From the NCBI GenBank assembly GCA_948466255.1, contig CAOJZV010000010.1:1-43541 (forward strand): DNA of 43,541 nucleotides, given 5' to 3'. The position numbers and the translations under genes were made by a program. How positions within the stretch are numbered: position 1 is the stretch's first letter; each line of letters begins with the position of its first letter. The stretch comes from an uncultured Bacillota bacterium. GTDB taxonomy: Bacteria > Bacillota_I > Bacilli_A > RF39 > UBA660. The notes beneath the pieces are model-generated. The model was not told the origin of the DNA. It was given only the letters and a program-made list of their open reading frames with translations, and did no database searches. Shown piece after piece: positions 1,867-22,738 of the stretch.

Positions 1867-2862
1867 TTATTCATAACAGGATGTTTTTCCATCAAAGACA
1901 GCACAGTAGTAGAAATCTTCGGCCTGGATAGCATTTGTCTCACCACTTGGATTAGCATCTATTAAAAGATTTTCGGCTCCACATGTTGCGGCAAGATCAC
2001 CAATCTCACAATTAGCACCATTACTTTCAAATGTAGACTGTAAGCTTTGTAATAGTGTTTTATTAGCGTTGAAGTATGTATTGCCTTCTGAATCTTGATG
2101 TCCTTGTATACATACTGGCTGTTCTATAAATGAATATTTTTGGCAGACATATGCATTTTTGATTACTCCACTTTCATCTATATCGTATTTAAAAAACCAT
2201 TTATTACCTGAAATATATGAAGGTAATTCTGCATAGTTTGTTTTATATTCTGATTCTGAAAGTGCGCTTGTACCTATTATTTTTTCATCTGTATGGTAGG
2301 CATAAACTGTTGTTAATTGATTATCATCTCCAGAAGGTCCAATTGCGCTTCCATCATTTTGTACATAATCAAGGGTTACATTAAGTGATCCTTCTGTACT
2401 TTCTGGTTGACTTTGCCCTTCAGCTATATCTTTATATGTTACTTTTATTGTTAATGTTGCAGTTCCCCCTGCTGTTAATGTAGACCCCTCTTCTATACCA
2501 CTTGTTTCAAATGTTATCATGTCATTATTTGGTTTTGATACTGTTAACTTTTCTAATTTAGCAGGTAATGTCCCACTATTTGTTACTGTTATATCATATT
2601 TCATTGAATCTCCTGGTGAAACTAAATTTGTTTTAAATGTGGCTGTTAGTGTCCCTACTCCTGTTGGTTCTTCTGCATTTGTTGCATCTCCACTTAGTGT
2701 TGTTGATGTTATTTGGGTTATGGCTATATTCCAGTTACTTGAAATTGTTGTTGTCCCATTTATTTTTAAGATGCTTTGAAATGCTGCATACCCAACAGCT
2801 AATGTTAAAATTAAAGCACATAGGCTTCCTAAAATTACATATTTTTTTTGAACTTGATTCAT
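1867..2862 (-). CDS. TasA/SipW-like exported protein, paralogue A
   Basis: 331 residues of unknown function. The N-terminus (about 1-50) is a membrane segment LCALILTLAVGYAAF followed by LKINGTTTISSNW, almost identical in the paralogues at 11838-12839 and 12874-13923. Residues 50-170 resemble the beta-sandwich of TasA/camelysin-type proteins: L-x-A-T-F-x-TNL-x-SPGD, YDITVTNSGTL. The C-terminal third has paired cysteines and is poorly conserved, and its last 120 nt are about 41% GC by count, above the gene body. The gene sits between sigH and secE, where Bacillus has rpmG. A signal or anchor function is inferred; a fibre or pilus role is possible but unproven. Confidence 0.75.
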   Translation of the reverse strand: MNQVQKKYVILGSLCALILTLAVGYAAFQSILKINGTTTISSNWNIAITQITSTTLSGDATNAEEPTGVGTLTATFKTNLVSPGDSMKYDITVTNSGTLPAKLEKLTVSKPNNDMITFETSGIEEGSTLTAGGTATLTIKVTYKDIAEGQSQPESTEGSLNVTLDYVQNDGSAIGPSGDDNQLTTVYAYHTDEKIIGTSALSESEYKTNYAELPSYISGNKWFFKYDIDESGVIKNAYVCQKYSFIEQPVCIQGHQDSEGNTYFNANKTLLQSLQSTFESNGANCEIGDLAATCGAENLLIDANPSGETNAIQAEDFYYCAVFDGKTSCYE

Positions 2863-11837: not shown

Positions 11838-12839
11838 CTACCCATTGCAGACCGCACTGCCATCGCTATCGACGAGGCATACCACAGAGCCATCGGACGC
11901 ATTCACATGGCCATCGGGCCTGGCGAGGGCAGTGAGTGAATCGGCATAACAATTCGATGCGGCATCATAGAATTCGCAACTACTACCATTACCATTAGCT
12001 GTAAACCATGATTCTTGACTTTGTAATAGGGCTTTGGTAGTTTCATAGTAACTAGCATCTCCACCTTGCATACAATGTTCCGTATCTGTTACAAAACATA
12101 CATATGATGCTGTTATTTTATTTTCTGAATCTATTTCATGTTTTAAATAATGATTTTTACCTAATGTTGTTGGGTCTGCAGTTGTATTTATGTCTTCTAT
12201 ACTATCTCCTATATTTAAAGTATCCGTTGTCCATCTATATACTACAGTACTATTATCTCCACCAGGGCCGATTACTGTTCCTCCACTTGTTTTTTGTTCA
12301 AAATCAAATGATATAGTCATACTTGCTGTTTTTGTCCCTGCTGTTTGTTGGTTTTCATAGTCTTTATATAATACTGTTACATATACATATCCTACATTAT
12401 TTGATTCTGTTGATTTATATAAAGTATCATTTTGTTTTAAGGTTCCTGTAATATCTTGATCGTTTTGATCTTTATTTAAATAAAAGATTATATCATTATT
12501 TGTATTTTCTGGTATTGTTATATTTTTTAATATCGCATCTAATGATCCATTATTTGTTATTGTTATCTTATATGTTGCATAATCTCCTGGACTTGTTAAG
12601 TTTGTATTAAATGTGGCTGATAGTCCTTTTGTATTATCATATGATGGAGCTTCTTTATCGGTTGCTCCTACACTCGCTGTTTTTTCTATAGCTGTTATTT
12701 TTACATCCCAATTTGAATTAATATTTGTTGTTCCATTTATTTTTAATATTGTTTGAAATGCCGCATATCCTACTGCTAGCGTTAAAATTAATGCACACAG
12801 ACTTCCTAATATTACATATTTTTTTTGAATTTGATTCAT
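11838..12839 (-). CDS. TasA/SipW-like exported protein, paralogue B with GC-rich tail
   Basis: 333 residues. The signal/membrane region and LKINGTTNINSNWDVKIT match paralogues A and C. The middle has FNTNLTSPGDYATYKITITNNGSL. The C-terminal third (YRWTTDTLNIGDSI, YVCFVTDTEHCM) is shared with the partial gene at 43035. By hand count the last 120 coding bases (11841-11960) are 58% GC, many codons ending in C (GCC, CTC, GTC, GGC), whereas the body is strongly AT-rich. This abrupt shift suggests a separate origin or special diversification of the tail. It lies 34 bp below paralogue C, with its own leader. Confidence 0.75.
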   Translation of the reverse strand: MNQIQKKYVILGSLCALILTLAVGYAAFQTILKINGTTNINSNWDVKITAIEKTASVGATDKEAPSYDNTKGLSATFNTNLTSPGDYATYKITITNNGSLDAILKNITIPENTNNDIIFYLNKDQNDQDITGTLKQNDTLYKSTESNNVGYVYVTVLYKDYENQQTAGTKTASMTISFDFEQKTSGGTVIGPGGDNSTVVYRWTTDTLNIGDSIEDINTTADPTTLGKNHYLKHEIDSENKITASYVCFVTDTEHCMQGGDASYYETTKALLQSQESWFTANGNGSSCEFYDAASNCYADSLTALARPDGHVNASDGSVVCLVDSDGSAVCNG

Positions 12840-12873: not shown

Positions 12874-13923
12874 TTAATAAGTCCAAACTTCTTTTTCACT
12901 GAATAAGTCAATATATGAATCTTCACTACCATCAGCTAGTGAATAACTTGCATTAATATAACCACTTGTATCTGTTGATATTGAAAGTGAATTATCTTCA
13001 TTGCTACAGCTTGCACTAGTTTCATCTCCATAACATAAATCTTCACCAAAGGCCGATAATAATATCGTTTTATTTGCTTCAAATGTAGATCCATCTTCTT
13101 TGCCTTGAAGGCAATATAATTGTCCTTCTTTTTTGAAACATACACTTATACTTTCTATCATATTGTTTACTACATCATGTTTTAAGAAAATTGTACGGTT
13201 TAAAGCGTTATAATCCTCTACATAATAATTTGTTGGTTTAATTTTGGCACCTACACCAATACTCCTATTTTGATCATAACTATATAAGACTCCATCGGAT
13301 GAACTAGCTGGTGGAATTGCCCCACTTTCATTTACTCCTTCTTGTTCGTAATTTAATTCTAATTTTATATTAGCACTTGTTTTTTCTGGTTGACTTGTTA
13401 CAGTATTTTTATAATATACTTGAACGTATATATAATGTTTTTCTCCTTTATCAATTGGAAAATATGAGTCTCTATAATCACCGGTACCTATAGATAAAAA
13501 ATCTGCTAAAACTCCGCCAGTCCATTCACTAGTATATACTTGTTTTGGCGTGGCAAAAACACTGCAGGAAATTGCGTCGTTATCTCCACATGATAAATTA
13601 GCAACTGTAATTATTCCTGCTAATGATCCTTTATTGCTTATCTCAACTTCGTAAGTTCTACTACTTGTCCCTGGTGTGATTAATCCTGTATTAAATGTGG
13701 CAGTTGTTTTAGTAAATGTTGGAGCTGTTATATCGTAAGCATCACTATTTTTATCTGGATTCCCACCTCTTATGTTTGTTATTTCTATATCCCAATTACT
13801 AGAAATGCTTGTTGTTCCATTTATTTTTAGGACAGTGTTAAATGCCGCATATCCAACTGCTAGTGTTAGAACTAAAGCGCATAAACTTCCTAATATTACA
13901 TATTTTTTTTGAACTTGATTCAT
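12874..13923 (-). CDS. TasA/SipW-like exported protein, paralogue C
   Basis: 349 residues with the family N-terminus (LCALVLTLAVGYAAF, LKINGTTSISSNW) and the central FNTGLITPGTSSRTYEVEISNKGSL. The C-terminal region is different from A, B and D: it has SVCFKKEGQLYCLQG and ends EKEVWTY, without the final SDGS-x-x-C block, and stays AT-rich. It is the first gene of a tandem pair with B. The C promoter is the only clear one before the pair, so both may be co-transcribed. Confidence 0.75.
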   Translation of the reverse strand: MNQVQKKYVILGSLCALVLTLAVGYAAFNTVLKINGTTSISSNWDIEITNIRGGNPDKNSDAYDITAPTFTKTTATFNTGLITPGTSSRTYEVEISNKGSLAGIITVANLSCGDNDAISCSVFATPKQVYTSEWTGGVLADFLSIGTGDYRDSYFPIDKGEKHYIYVQVYYKNTVTSQPEKTSANIKLELNYEQEGVNESGAIPPASSSDGVLYSYDQNRSIGVGAKIKPTNYYVEDYNALNRTIFLKHDVVNNMIESISVCFKKEGQLYCLQGKEDGSTFEANKTILLSAFGEDLCYGDETSASCSNEDNSLSISTDTSGYINASYSLADGSEDSYIDLFSEKEVWTY

Positions 13924-21439: not shown

Positions 21440-21471
21440 AAAGTAAAAAGAACATGTGGTTATGTTCTTTT
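21440..21471 (-). terminator. Terminator of the phase-variable surface gene
   Basis: AAAAGAACAT and ATGTTCTTTT pair across a 6-nt loop, and the minus strand continues TACTTT. It overlaps the stop codon region of the gene at 21470. Confidence 0.7.
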
Positions 21472-22537
21472 ATGAATTAATTATATATGGATTTGTTTCT
21501 GTTCCCTTTCCTTTTAATAATATATTTGATTTTATATAAACTGTAGGACGTACTCCATAATTACTGTAATTAGCGGTATAACCTCCACTTAATCTCCCTG
21601 AAGTACTTAAAAGCCAAACGTAGTAAGAATATGAATACGGGCGTGGTGTCATTGTCCACCAATCTGTAGAATTAAATAAAAAATTGCCATTTTTACAGGG
21701 ATATGGACTTTCACTTCCGACATAAGCACTTGTACATGATGAATCAGTGCTTGCTCTTACATAATCTGTAGCATTGGCAAGTCCTATTTTTCCTTTCCAT
21801 GTGTATGTTTTTTCTAATGAAATATCTTTAGTTAATGTCTGTCCACTTGTATAGTCCAATAATCCCACATTAAAAATATGTGTTGTTATTTTGTTTTGTA
21901 TATTTTCACTTAAACTATTATAATAGGTTTCATTTAAATATGTATTTATATAGGCTTCTTTATCAGGTAGGTTATAGGTAGTAGAATTCCCTGTTTGTTT
22001 TGGCATTTTTGTTATGTTATTTCCATTTGCATCTAACATTGTTGTTTTACTTCCCCATACATTACATCCATAATATGATGTTGTTGATGAACTATAATAA
22101 CAATAATCTGTATTATCTGAAGTGTATCTTGTACCTTCCATTGAGTTTGCATTTGTTATTCCTTCTATACTAGTTGTATATCCCGGGTCATATACCATAC
22201 TGGTTATACTTTGTTGCTTTATTATCTTTAATGTATTATCATTTTCGATTGAAATGATTCTCCATAGTTCCCCATTAAATTCTATATAATTATCTGGGGT
22301 TGCTCCTCTATAAATATATCTATTTGTTTCATATGTATCTTTATATAGTCCATCTCCTGTTGTTATTACTTTATTTTTTAGTTCATTTATCGTTATTCCT
22401 TTTTCTAATATATTTCCTTTAGCTGTTATATTTATATTTGTTTGAAAAGCGGCATAGCCTACTGTCATTATTAATAATAATGTTAGACTTGATATTATTA
22501 TTATCTTTCTTTGTTTTCTTCGTCTTCTTCTTCTCAT
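21470..22537 (-). CDS. Surface protein with SipW-like anchor and CLec/GVRP-type domain
   Basis: 355 residues. The start MRRRRRRKQRK is followed by a membrane segment (IIIISSLTLLLIMTVGYAAF) and QTNINITAKGNI, the same logic as the TasA-like paralogues but of another branch. The C-terminal half ends WWTMTPRPYSYSYYVWLL ... GRLSGGYTANYSNYGVRPTV, a layout seen in C-type-lectin-like domains of DUF6273 type and in diversity-generating retroelement targets. The ATG at 22537 follows AGGTGA. Its promoter contains a G13 tract. Function is unknown; an exposed variable surface protein is inferred. Confidence 0.75.
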   Translation of the reverse strand: MRRRRRRKQRKIIIISSLTLLLIMTVGYAAFQTNINITAKGNILEKGITINELKNKVITTGDGLYKDTYETNRYIYRGATPDNYIEFNGELWRIISIENDNTLKIIKQQSITSMVYDPGYTTSIEGITNANSMEGTRYTSDNTDYCYYSSSTTSYYGCNVWGSKTTMLDANGNNITKMPKQTGNSTTYNLPDKEAYINTYLNETYYNSLSENIQNKITTHIFNVGLLDYTSGQTLTKDISLEKTYTWKGKIGLANATDYVRASTDSSCTSAYVGSESPYPCKNGNFLFNSTDWWTMTPRPYSYSYYVWLLSTSGRLSGGYTANYSNYGVRPTVYIKSNILLKGKGTETNPYIINS

Positions 22538-22637
22538 ATTTTTCACCTATACTTTTTAATATTTCCTATTTGCTTATCTTTATACTATTATAACGAATAA
22601 TAACACTTTATTCAATGCTTATTATATTTGTATTTTT

Positions 22638-22667
22638 ATTATACCCCCCCCCCCCCTGGTTTGGCAA
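22638..22667 (-). promoter_or_regulatory. Promoter with G13 spacer, candidate phase-variation switch
   Basis: On the minus strand TTGCCA (22667-22662) is followed by AACCA and thirteen G (22656-22644), then TATAAT (22643-22638). The spacer is 18 bp with G13; G12 would give the optimal 17 bp. Homopolymer G/C runs between -35 and -10 control phase variation of Neisseria and Bordetella surface genes by slippage. The run is extraordinary in such AT-rich DNA. Switching here is inferred. Confidence 0.75.
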
Positions 22668-22707
22668 GTAGTTTTAAGAGTAAAATGTATGTTTTGACAT
22701 TAATATA

Positions 22708-22738
22708 CAAAAAAACAAGATAATATTATATATCTTGT
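22708..22738 (-). terminator. Terminator of the prepilin pair
   Basis: ACAAGATA and TATCTTGT (22738-22715) form a hairpin followed by TTTTTTG on the minus strand, 12 bp after the prepilin stop. It isolates the prepilin transcript from the G13 promoter. Confidence 0.75.

Follow-up and report, generated by a model that had tools for sequence, protein, structure and literature searches.

In a few pathogens, slippage within a promoter spacer has been documented for individual genes; we describe the same design as an apparent regulon of approximately 18 cassettes in uncultured gut bacteria whose genomes are very small, one relative having as many as 74. Described switches built on promoter repeats include porA with its poly-G spacer, hifA/hifB and Mycoplasma hyorhinis (PMC3899988). 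A reading of this DNA from sequence alone had likened its layout to that of both porA and opc: the former comparison is right, whereas for opc the published sources disagree on the position of the poly-C tract, placing it either across the -35 box (PMC7864442) or between the -10 and -35 boxes (PMC2791445). In Neisseria meningitidis porA a poly-G run separates the -35 and -10 boxes, as it does here, and there single-base changes in its length affect how strongly a surface protein is transcribed (PMC3899988, PMC7864442), with PorA transcription following the G count in the spacer (PMC3899988). The meningococcal system comprises one gene, whereas the cassettes reported here are many, belong to a Gram-positive-type (Bacilli) lineage and have a larger total spacing (mode 19-20).

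The Vlp system combines a poly-A spacer with a conserved N-terminus. In the form in which PMC3899988 cites it, Mycoplasma hyorhinis Vlp is a surface-protein family with a promoter homopolymer for each gene and divergent exposed parts, a design that the present, predicted surface proteins would share. The genes discussed below likewise have a conserved N-terminus, divergent C-termini and one tract each, but their tracts are poly-G, they are more numerous and scattered over the genome, and their conserved N-terminus contains no lipobox cysteine, so that the Vlp combination of poly-A and lipobox is not reproduced. Bifidobacterium breve is likewise a gut commensal, and in it G-tract slippage controls surface structures, namely sortase pili (PMC9187656); its described tracts are intragenic and frame-shifting, whereas those presented here lie outside the reading frame, although its authors mention, without detail, further G-tracts in promoter spacers (PMC9187656). 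Finally, poly-G length affects transcription of the Treponema pallidum tpr surface-protein family, but there the mechanism differs, as the tprL tract overlaps the -10 region and leaves the -35/-10 spacing unchanged (PMC7864442). In the open-access literature on this lineage or on the mechanism we found no description of such a regulon, and the feature is both real and larger than the sequence-only reading had reported.

The G13 promoter and its target gene

The window, that is the whole stretch of 43,541 nucleotides analyzed, corresponds to one entire contig (G000:C10) of a 1.05-Mb, 32-contig, 68%-complete assembly. On its minus strand, positions 22667-22638 read TTGCCA-AACCA-G13-TATAAT: the -35 hexamer at 22662..22667 is kept in the cassettes of this genome, the G13 homopolymer at 22644..22656 corresponds to C13 on the plus strand, the -10 hexamer occupies 22638..22643, and the spacer between the two hexamers measures 18 bp. 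The position originally proposed for this promoter, and the arithmetic by which G13 yields 18 bp and G12 17 bp, are right; the tract had further been said to sit exactly between the hexamers, and while it does abut TATAAT, the bases AACCA part it from TTGCCA. The promoter, hereafter P1, matches 11 of 12 consensus positions and is among the two best-scoring promoter-like sites in the 2-kb stretch scanned, with a homopolymer between its hexamers as in porA. That such a run exceeds chance in AT-rich DNA holds as well, since among 100 shuffles of the window (27% G+C) that preserved its dinucleotide content none contained a G11 run.

Immediately upstream of P1, an AT-rich block on the minus strand (22668..22697; consensus tttA...aTTTT..ccTTAAAA..AC) is common to the cassettes, and its information content increases from approximately 0.4 bits to 1.5 bits as the -35 box is approached; by its sequence it resembles an UP element and may act as one. 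Further upstream, a terminator-like hairpin with a T run (22708..22738, minus strand; 8-pair stem, -7.8 kcal/mol, z -2.3) follows a pilin-like gene and stops approximately 50 bp 5' of P1, and the target gene is therefore its own transcription unit. This hairpin was missed by the scan that scored P1 because it is low in G+C. The tract itself ends 106 nt 5' of the target ATG and hence lies outside the reading frame, which rules out poly-G phase variation by translational frameshifting.

The open reading frame called downstream of the tract is real: the target gene (21470..22537, minus strand, ATG at 22537) encodes a 355-aa exported protein that begins MRRRRRRKQRKIIIISSLTLLLIMTVGYAAFQTN, with a basic N-terminus, a hydrophobic segment and surface-type domains recognizable in the sequence only. 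Its N-terminal export/anchor segment (22391..22537, minus strand) is conserved and common to approximately 30 genes of the genome, whereas the C-terminal tail is paralog-divergent; the latter had been called CLec-like and is assigned by Pfam to DUF6273 (residues 183-337, 21527..21991 on the minus strand, E 4e-10). The label of a SipW-anchored protein was not borne out: an NCBIfam search returned no SipW-type match. A PDB sequence search yielded nothing meaningful, and a fold prediction for the target protein made without an alignment was too poor (pLDDT 38) and was discarded.

Promoter cassettes across the genome

The G13 promoter is one of 18 such cassettes in this genome, with tracts of 7, 11, 13 (four copies), 14 (seven), 15 (three), 16 and 17 Gs, plus one apparently artefactual G22 tract at a contig end; the count includes the G7 copy located 5' of another family gene (L070/L316), and the sequence read outside the window comprised the stretches around tracts and family genes. 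Every run of at least 11 Gs in the genome has either the cassette layout or the marks of a contig-end artefact. The order of elements is constant, with the AT-rich upstream block followed by TTGCCAAAACCA, the G-tract and TATAAT, the -35 context ACTTGYCAAAAYCA recurring with small variations and TATAAT directly 3' of the Gs (one contig-end copy reads TATAAA), and the -35/-10 spacings range from 13 to 23 with a mode of 20. On the 5' side of the common block, each cassette abuts different sequence.

Nearly all intact genes behind the cassettes share a start, MRRRRRRKQRKIIIISSLTLLFIMTVGYAAFQTN or a related segment, beyond which they diverge, with C-terminal domains that include DUF6273, glycine-rich ALK/LTK-type, CBM_4_9 with Flg_new, DUF11-like and Gp10_C-like modules. 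A search of the genome with an N-terminal profile marked 34 places, of which 14 can be seen to follow a tract and others are truncated at contig ends. At L009 (G000:C3, around position 54953) the longest of the internal tracts, G17, precedes not a surface-family gene but what, by inspection of its sequence, we take to be a histidine-phosphatase-like protein.

Family members also occur without a G tract, three of them in the window (1867-2862, 11838-12839 and 12874-13923), the last of which has an ordinary 18-bp spacer with GG at its end before TATAAT. Among the tractless members of the genome, L089 and L096 show this 18-bp arrangement with terminal GG, which suggests that the tract could have grown out of such a short GG. 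In three other tractless members, L072 and L076 (G000:C22) and L073 (G000:C25), poly-T runs (approximately T18, T18 and T8, respectively) stand directly 5' of TATGAT and are possibly either terminator T-runs or a second kind of variable tract.

In light of these results, we propose that the cassettes are best explained by a slippage switch of the porA/Vlp type that has been multiplied into a regulon, an explanation that we hold with good though not complete confidence, the switching itself being what we infer from the arrangement. What the data establish is the layout, its non-randomness, its repetition, the class of genes involved and the compensated spacing described below, an arrangement that is unambiguous and subject to selection. 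In this mechanism, G13 would constitute the length-adjustable part of a σA-type promoter spacer, in which DNA polymerase slippage in living populations would add or remove Gs and shift the -35/-10 distance in one-base steps, independently for each gene. Spacing would in turn set promoter strength, with approximately 18-19 bp giving strong transcription and longer or much shorter distances giving weak or none, and with the same cassette before approximately 18 genes individual cells would display random and heritable subsets of presumably exposed surface proteins, perhaps as a means of escape from phage, immunity or competition. The locus presented here, at 18 bp, would be near the predicted optimum and hence likely ON. 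Should the tracts prove variable in situ, existing public gut metagenomes would allow culture-free estimates of switching rates and of surface-coat combinations in natural populations.

The genome encodes mutS1, so that no general repair defect raises slippage in it. Loss of mismatch repair was accordingly rejected as a cause: mutS1 is missing in G013, a genome with 29 tracts, but also in tract-poor genomes. In G013 (92% complete) no mutS1 match was obtained, while 40 of 44 genomes of the genus have one over the cut-off; two further genomes that lack mutS1 contain no tracts or only a few.

A second promoter-like element behind the tract

Between the tract and the target gene lies a second promoter-like element, P2 (TTGAAT-17-TATAAT, 22587..22615 on the minus strand), whose conserved core at 22590-22615 contains the inverted repeat GAATAA...TTATTC. 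It is linked to a leader element, TTGAAYAARGTGTYRYTATTCGTTAT, that is conserved in six cassettes (this locus, L009, L011, L018, L022 and L023) 25-60 nt past the -10 box. In four of the six leaders TTGAAYAARGTGTYRYTATTCGTTAT completes TTGAAT-17-TATAAT with the inverted repeat in its spacer. An Rfam search of the leader gave no match. P2 may, judging from these motifs, be a second, regulated promoter with an operator, and its position between tract and gene means that the tract may modulate rather than switch the target gene, to which P2 may add a tract-independent level of transcription.

The alternative that fares best goes further and takes P2 as the working promoter at this locus, possibly with a repressor on the inverted repeat, such that the G-tract promoter only adds to or interferes with it. 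Arguing for it are the 10/12 consensus score with 17-bp spacing, the retention of the 26-nt core, spacer included, in all six leaders while the flanking leader diverges, together with the absence of the element from the rest of this genome, and the presence behind the tract, in the related species G023, of a comparable TTGCTA-17-TATAAT that has an inverted repeat of its own (the palindrome there differs, CCATTGTT...AACGATGG). The -10 box of P2 is however degraded in two of the six copies (TATGGT and TATAAC), and at least nine other cassettes lack P2 altogether, with translation starting 24-40 nt past the tract. We regard this alternative as possible but rather doubtful. In the short-leader cassettes the G-tract promoter is therefore the sole candidate, and off-switching by the tract is a weaker claim for the gene studied here than for them.

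Spacing, tract length and the wider lineage

For a tract that serves as a spacer, one expects a length that offsets the other spacer bases. With the -35 box picked independently of tract length, the number of other spacer bases is inversely related to G count (rho -0.71 over 129 cassettes in 61 genomes, a figure that ignores kinship), as it also is by genome medians (rho -0.63 for the 61 genomes) and in 25 family-type genomes (rho -0.85), kinship again ignored. Total spacing has a median of 19 over the 129 cassettes and a standard deviation of 1.03, as compared to 2.04 when permuted, with none of 10,000 permutations as low; in other words, longer flanks go with shorter tracts and spacing is held near 18-20 bp. 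As in porA, tract length thus sets a constrained spacing, and this compensation provides the strongest indication that the tract functions as a spacer. The proposal to that effect made from the sequence alone is borne out both by this tuning in many genomes and by the repetition of the cassette before a surface-protein family. Beyond the lineage, 63 of 110 G10+TATAAT sites examined across many phyla are preceded, at a spacing of 15-21 bp, by a -35 box scoring 5/6 or better, as opposed to 4.3% in shuffles, with a mode of 19. The textbook -35/-10 spacing is 17, and the higher optimum may stem from G-rich DNA being underwound. Compensation thereby provides a natural data set on workable spacing with G-rich spacers, at approximately 19 rather than 17.

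As a proxy for variability, we compared paralogous cassettes with similar flanks (at most 14/70 mismatches) in one genome per species. Tract length differs in 6 of 7 such pairs here, in 10 of 13 in G013 and in all 3 in G030, but in none of 137 close pairs (at most 7/70 mismatches) in G406, where the wider limit gives 20 differing pairs out of 225, as expected from a single G8 copy. These comparisons suggest that long tracts are labile over the time scale of cassette duplication and short ones stable, although the differences between paralogous copies may be older than the duplication or be due in part to homopolymer assembly error. The pattern fits observations in B. breve, where a G11 tract is a strong slippage motif and G10 less so (PMC9187656).

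Not every G spacer is a switch: among the 74 tracts of G406, the ones examined are G9 with essentially no variation. Its genome is possibly a frozen or slow version of the system. Many of its G-tract promoters stand in tandem arrays approximately 1.0-1.1 kb apart (L240-L269), and each precedes a paralogous exported protein. An alternative is that the tract is a fixed structural spacer, in the form of stiff, A-form-like DNA or a non-template G-quadruplex, that determines promoter properties and is invariant in practice. The strict orientation, with G on the coding strand in all cassettes, and the 30 of 31 examined G406 cassettes with G9 at 19-bp spacing are what it would predict, but 7-17 Gs are found in near-identical contexts of one genome and it is total spacing, not tract length, that is conserved across genomes; we consider it improbable.

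Slightly less probable still is that the tract marks a recombination or insertion hotspot that shuffles cassettes and C-termini, with phase variation incidental. Such a hotspot would account for the near-identity of promoter and first approximately 50 codons between family genes whose C-termini differ, and for cassettes often placed behind terminators of unrelated genes, yet it leaves the spacer-length compensation unexplained. A diversity-generating retroelement behind the C-terminal variation was likewise dismissed, as the assembled genome (68% complete) holds no RVT_1 match and hence no reverse transcriptase of that kind. Finally, although 5 of 19 tracts are no more than approximately 120 bp away from a contig end, and some of these are followed by corrupted sequence, it is very unlikely that the tract lengths arose by assembly or PCR error from real tracts that are shorter and stable, given at least 13 contig-internal tracts that have intact flanks and are followed by TATAAT and a correlation between tract and rest of spacer that cannot arise by sequencing error. 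Corrupted contig ends at G tracts occur at L011 and L014 (contig starts) and L024 (contig end), with G22 at L011 and G-rich/A-rich junk, which makes these promoters probable break points in assemblies of this lineage.

Returning to the proposed slippage-switch regulon, its promoter design spans many species of one family. G9+TATAAT occurs in 53 of 385 genomes of the order and the reversed control pattern in none, with 74 tracts in G406, 33 in G205, 29 in G013 and 28 in G131; a G9+TA...T query matches 15 of 59 relatives, and in class members outside the order G10+TATAAT is rare, at no more than 4 per genome. Within the genus, the -35 context is species-specific (TTGACATTTTAA, TTGAAATTTTGAT, TTGACAAAATC and others) and the class of downstream gene unchanged. 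None of the relatives that we examined showed a tract at the orthologous position; in the closest (G023, 82%) the contig stops short of it. A species-specific scan of GTDB r220 contigs gave no match. Taken together, these data would fit a genome-wide combinatorial surface-coat switch in an uncultured, genome-reduced family of gut Bacilli, in which a mobile or self-copying promoter cassette with slippable Gs serves tens of paralogous surface genes, having evolved repeatedly, with species-specific -35 contexts, 18-20 bp spacing and freezing at G9 in some species; to this joint reading in all its parts we would give an even chance.

Related arrangements appear elsewhere. Thirteen viral contigs carry G10+TATAAT, few of them promoter-like; three (L324, L327 and L331) have downstream flanks in common after runs of G10, G11 and G13, respectively, which suggests related prophages with a length-variable tract. 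At L124, L140, L150 and L207 (Streptobacillus notomytis, Lachnospiraceae and others), closely paired G-tract promoters precede paralogous exported proteins.
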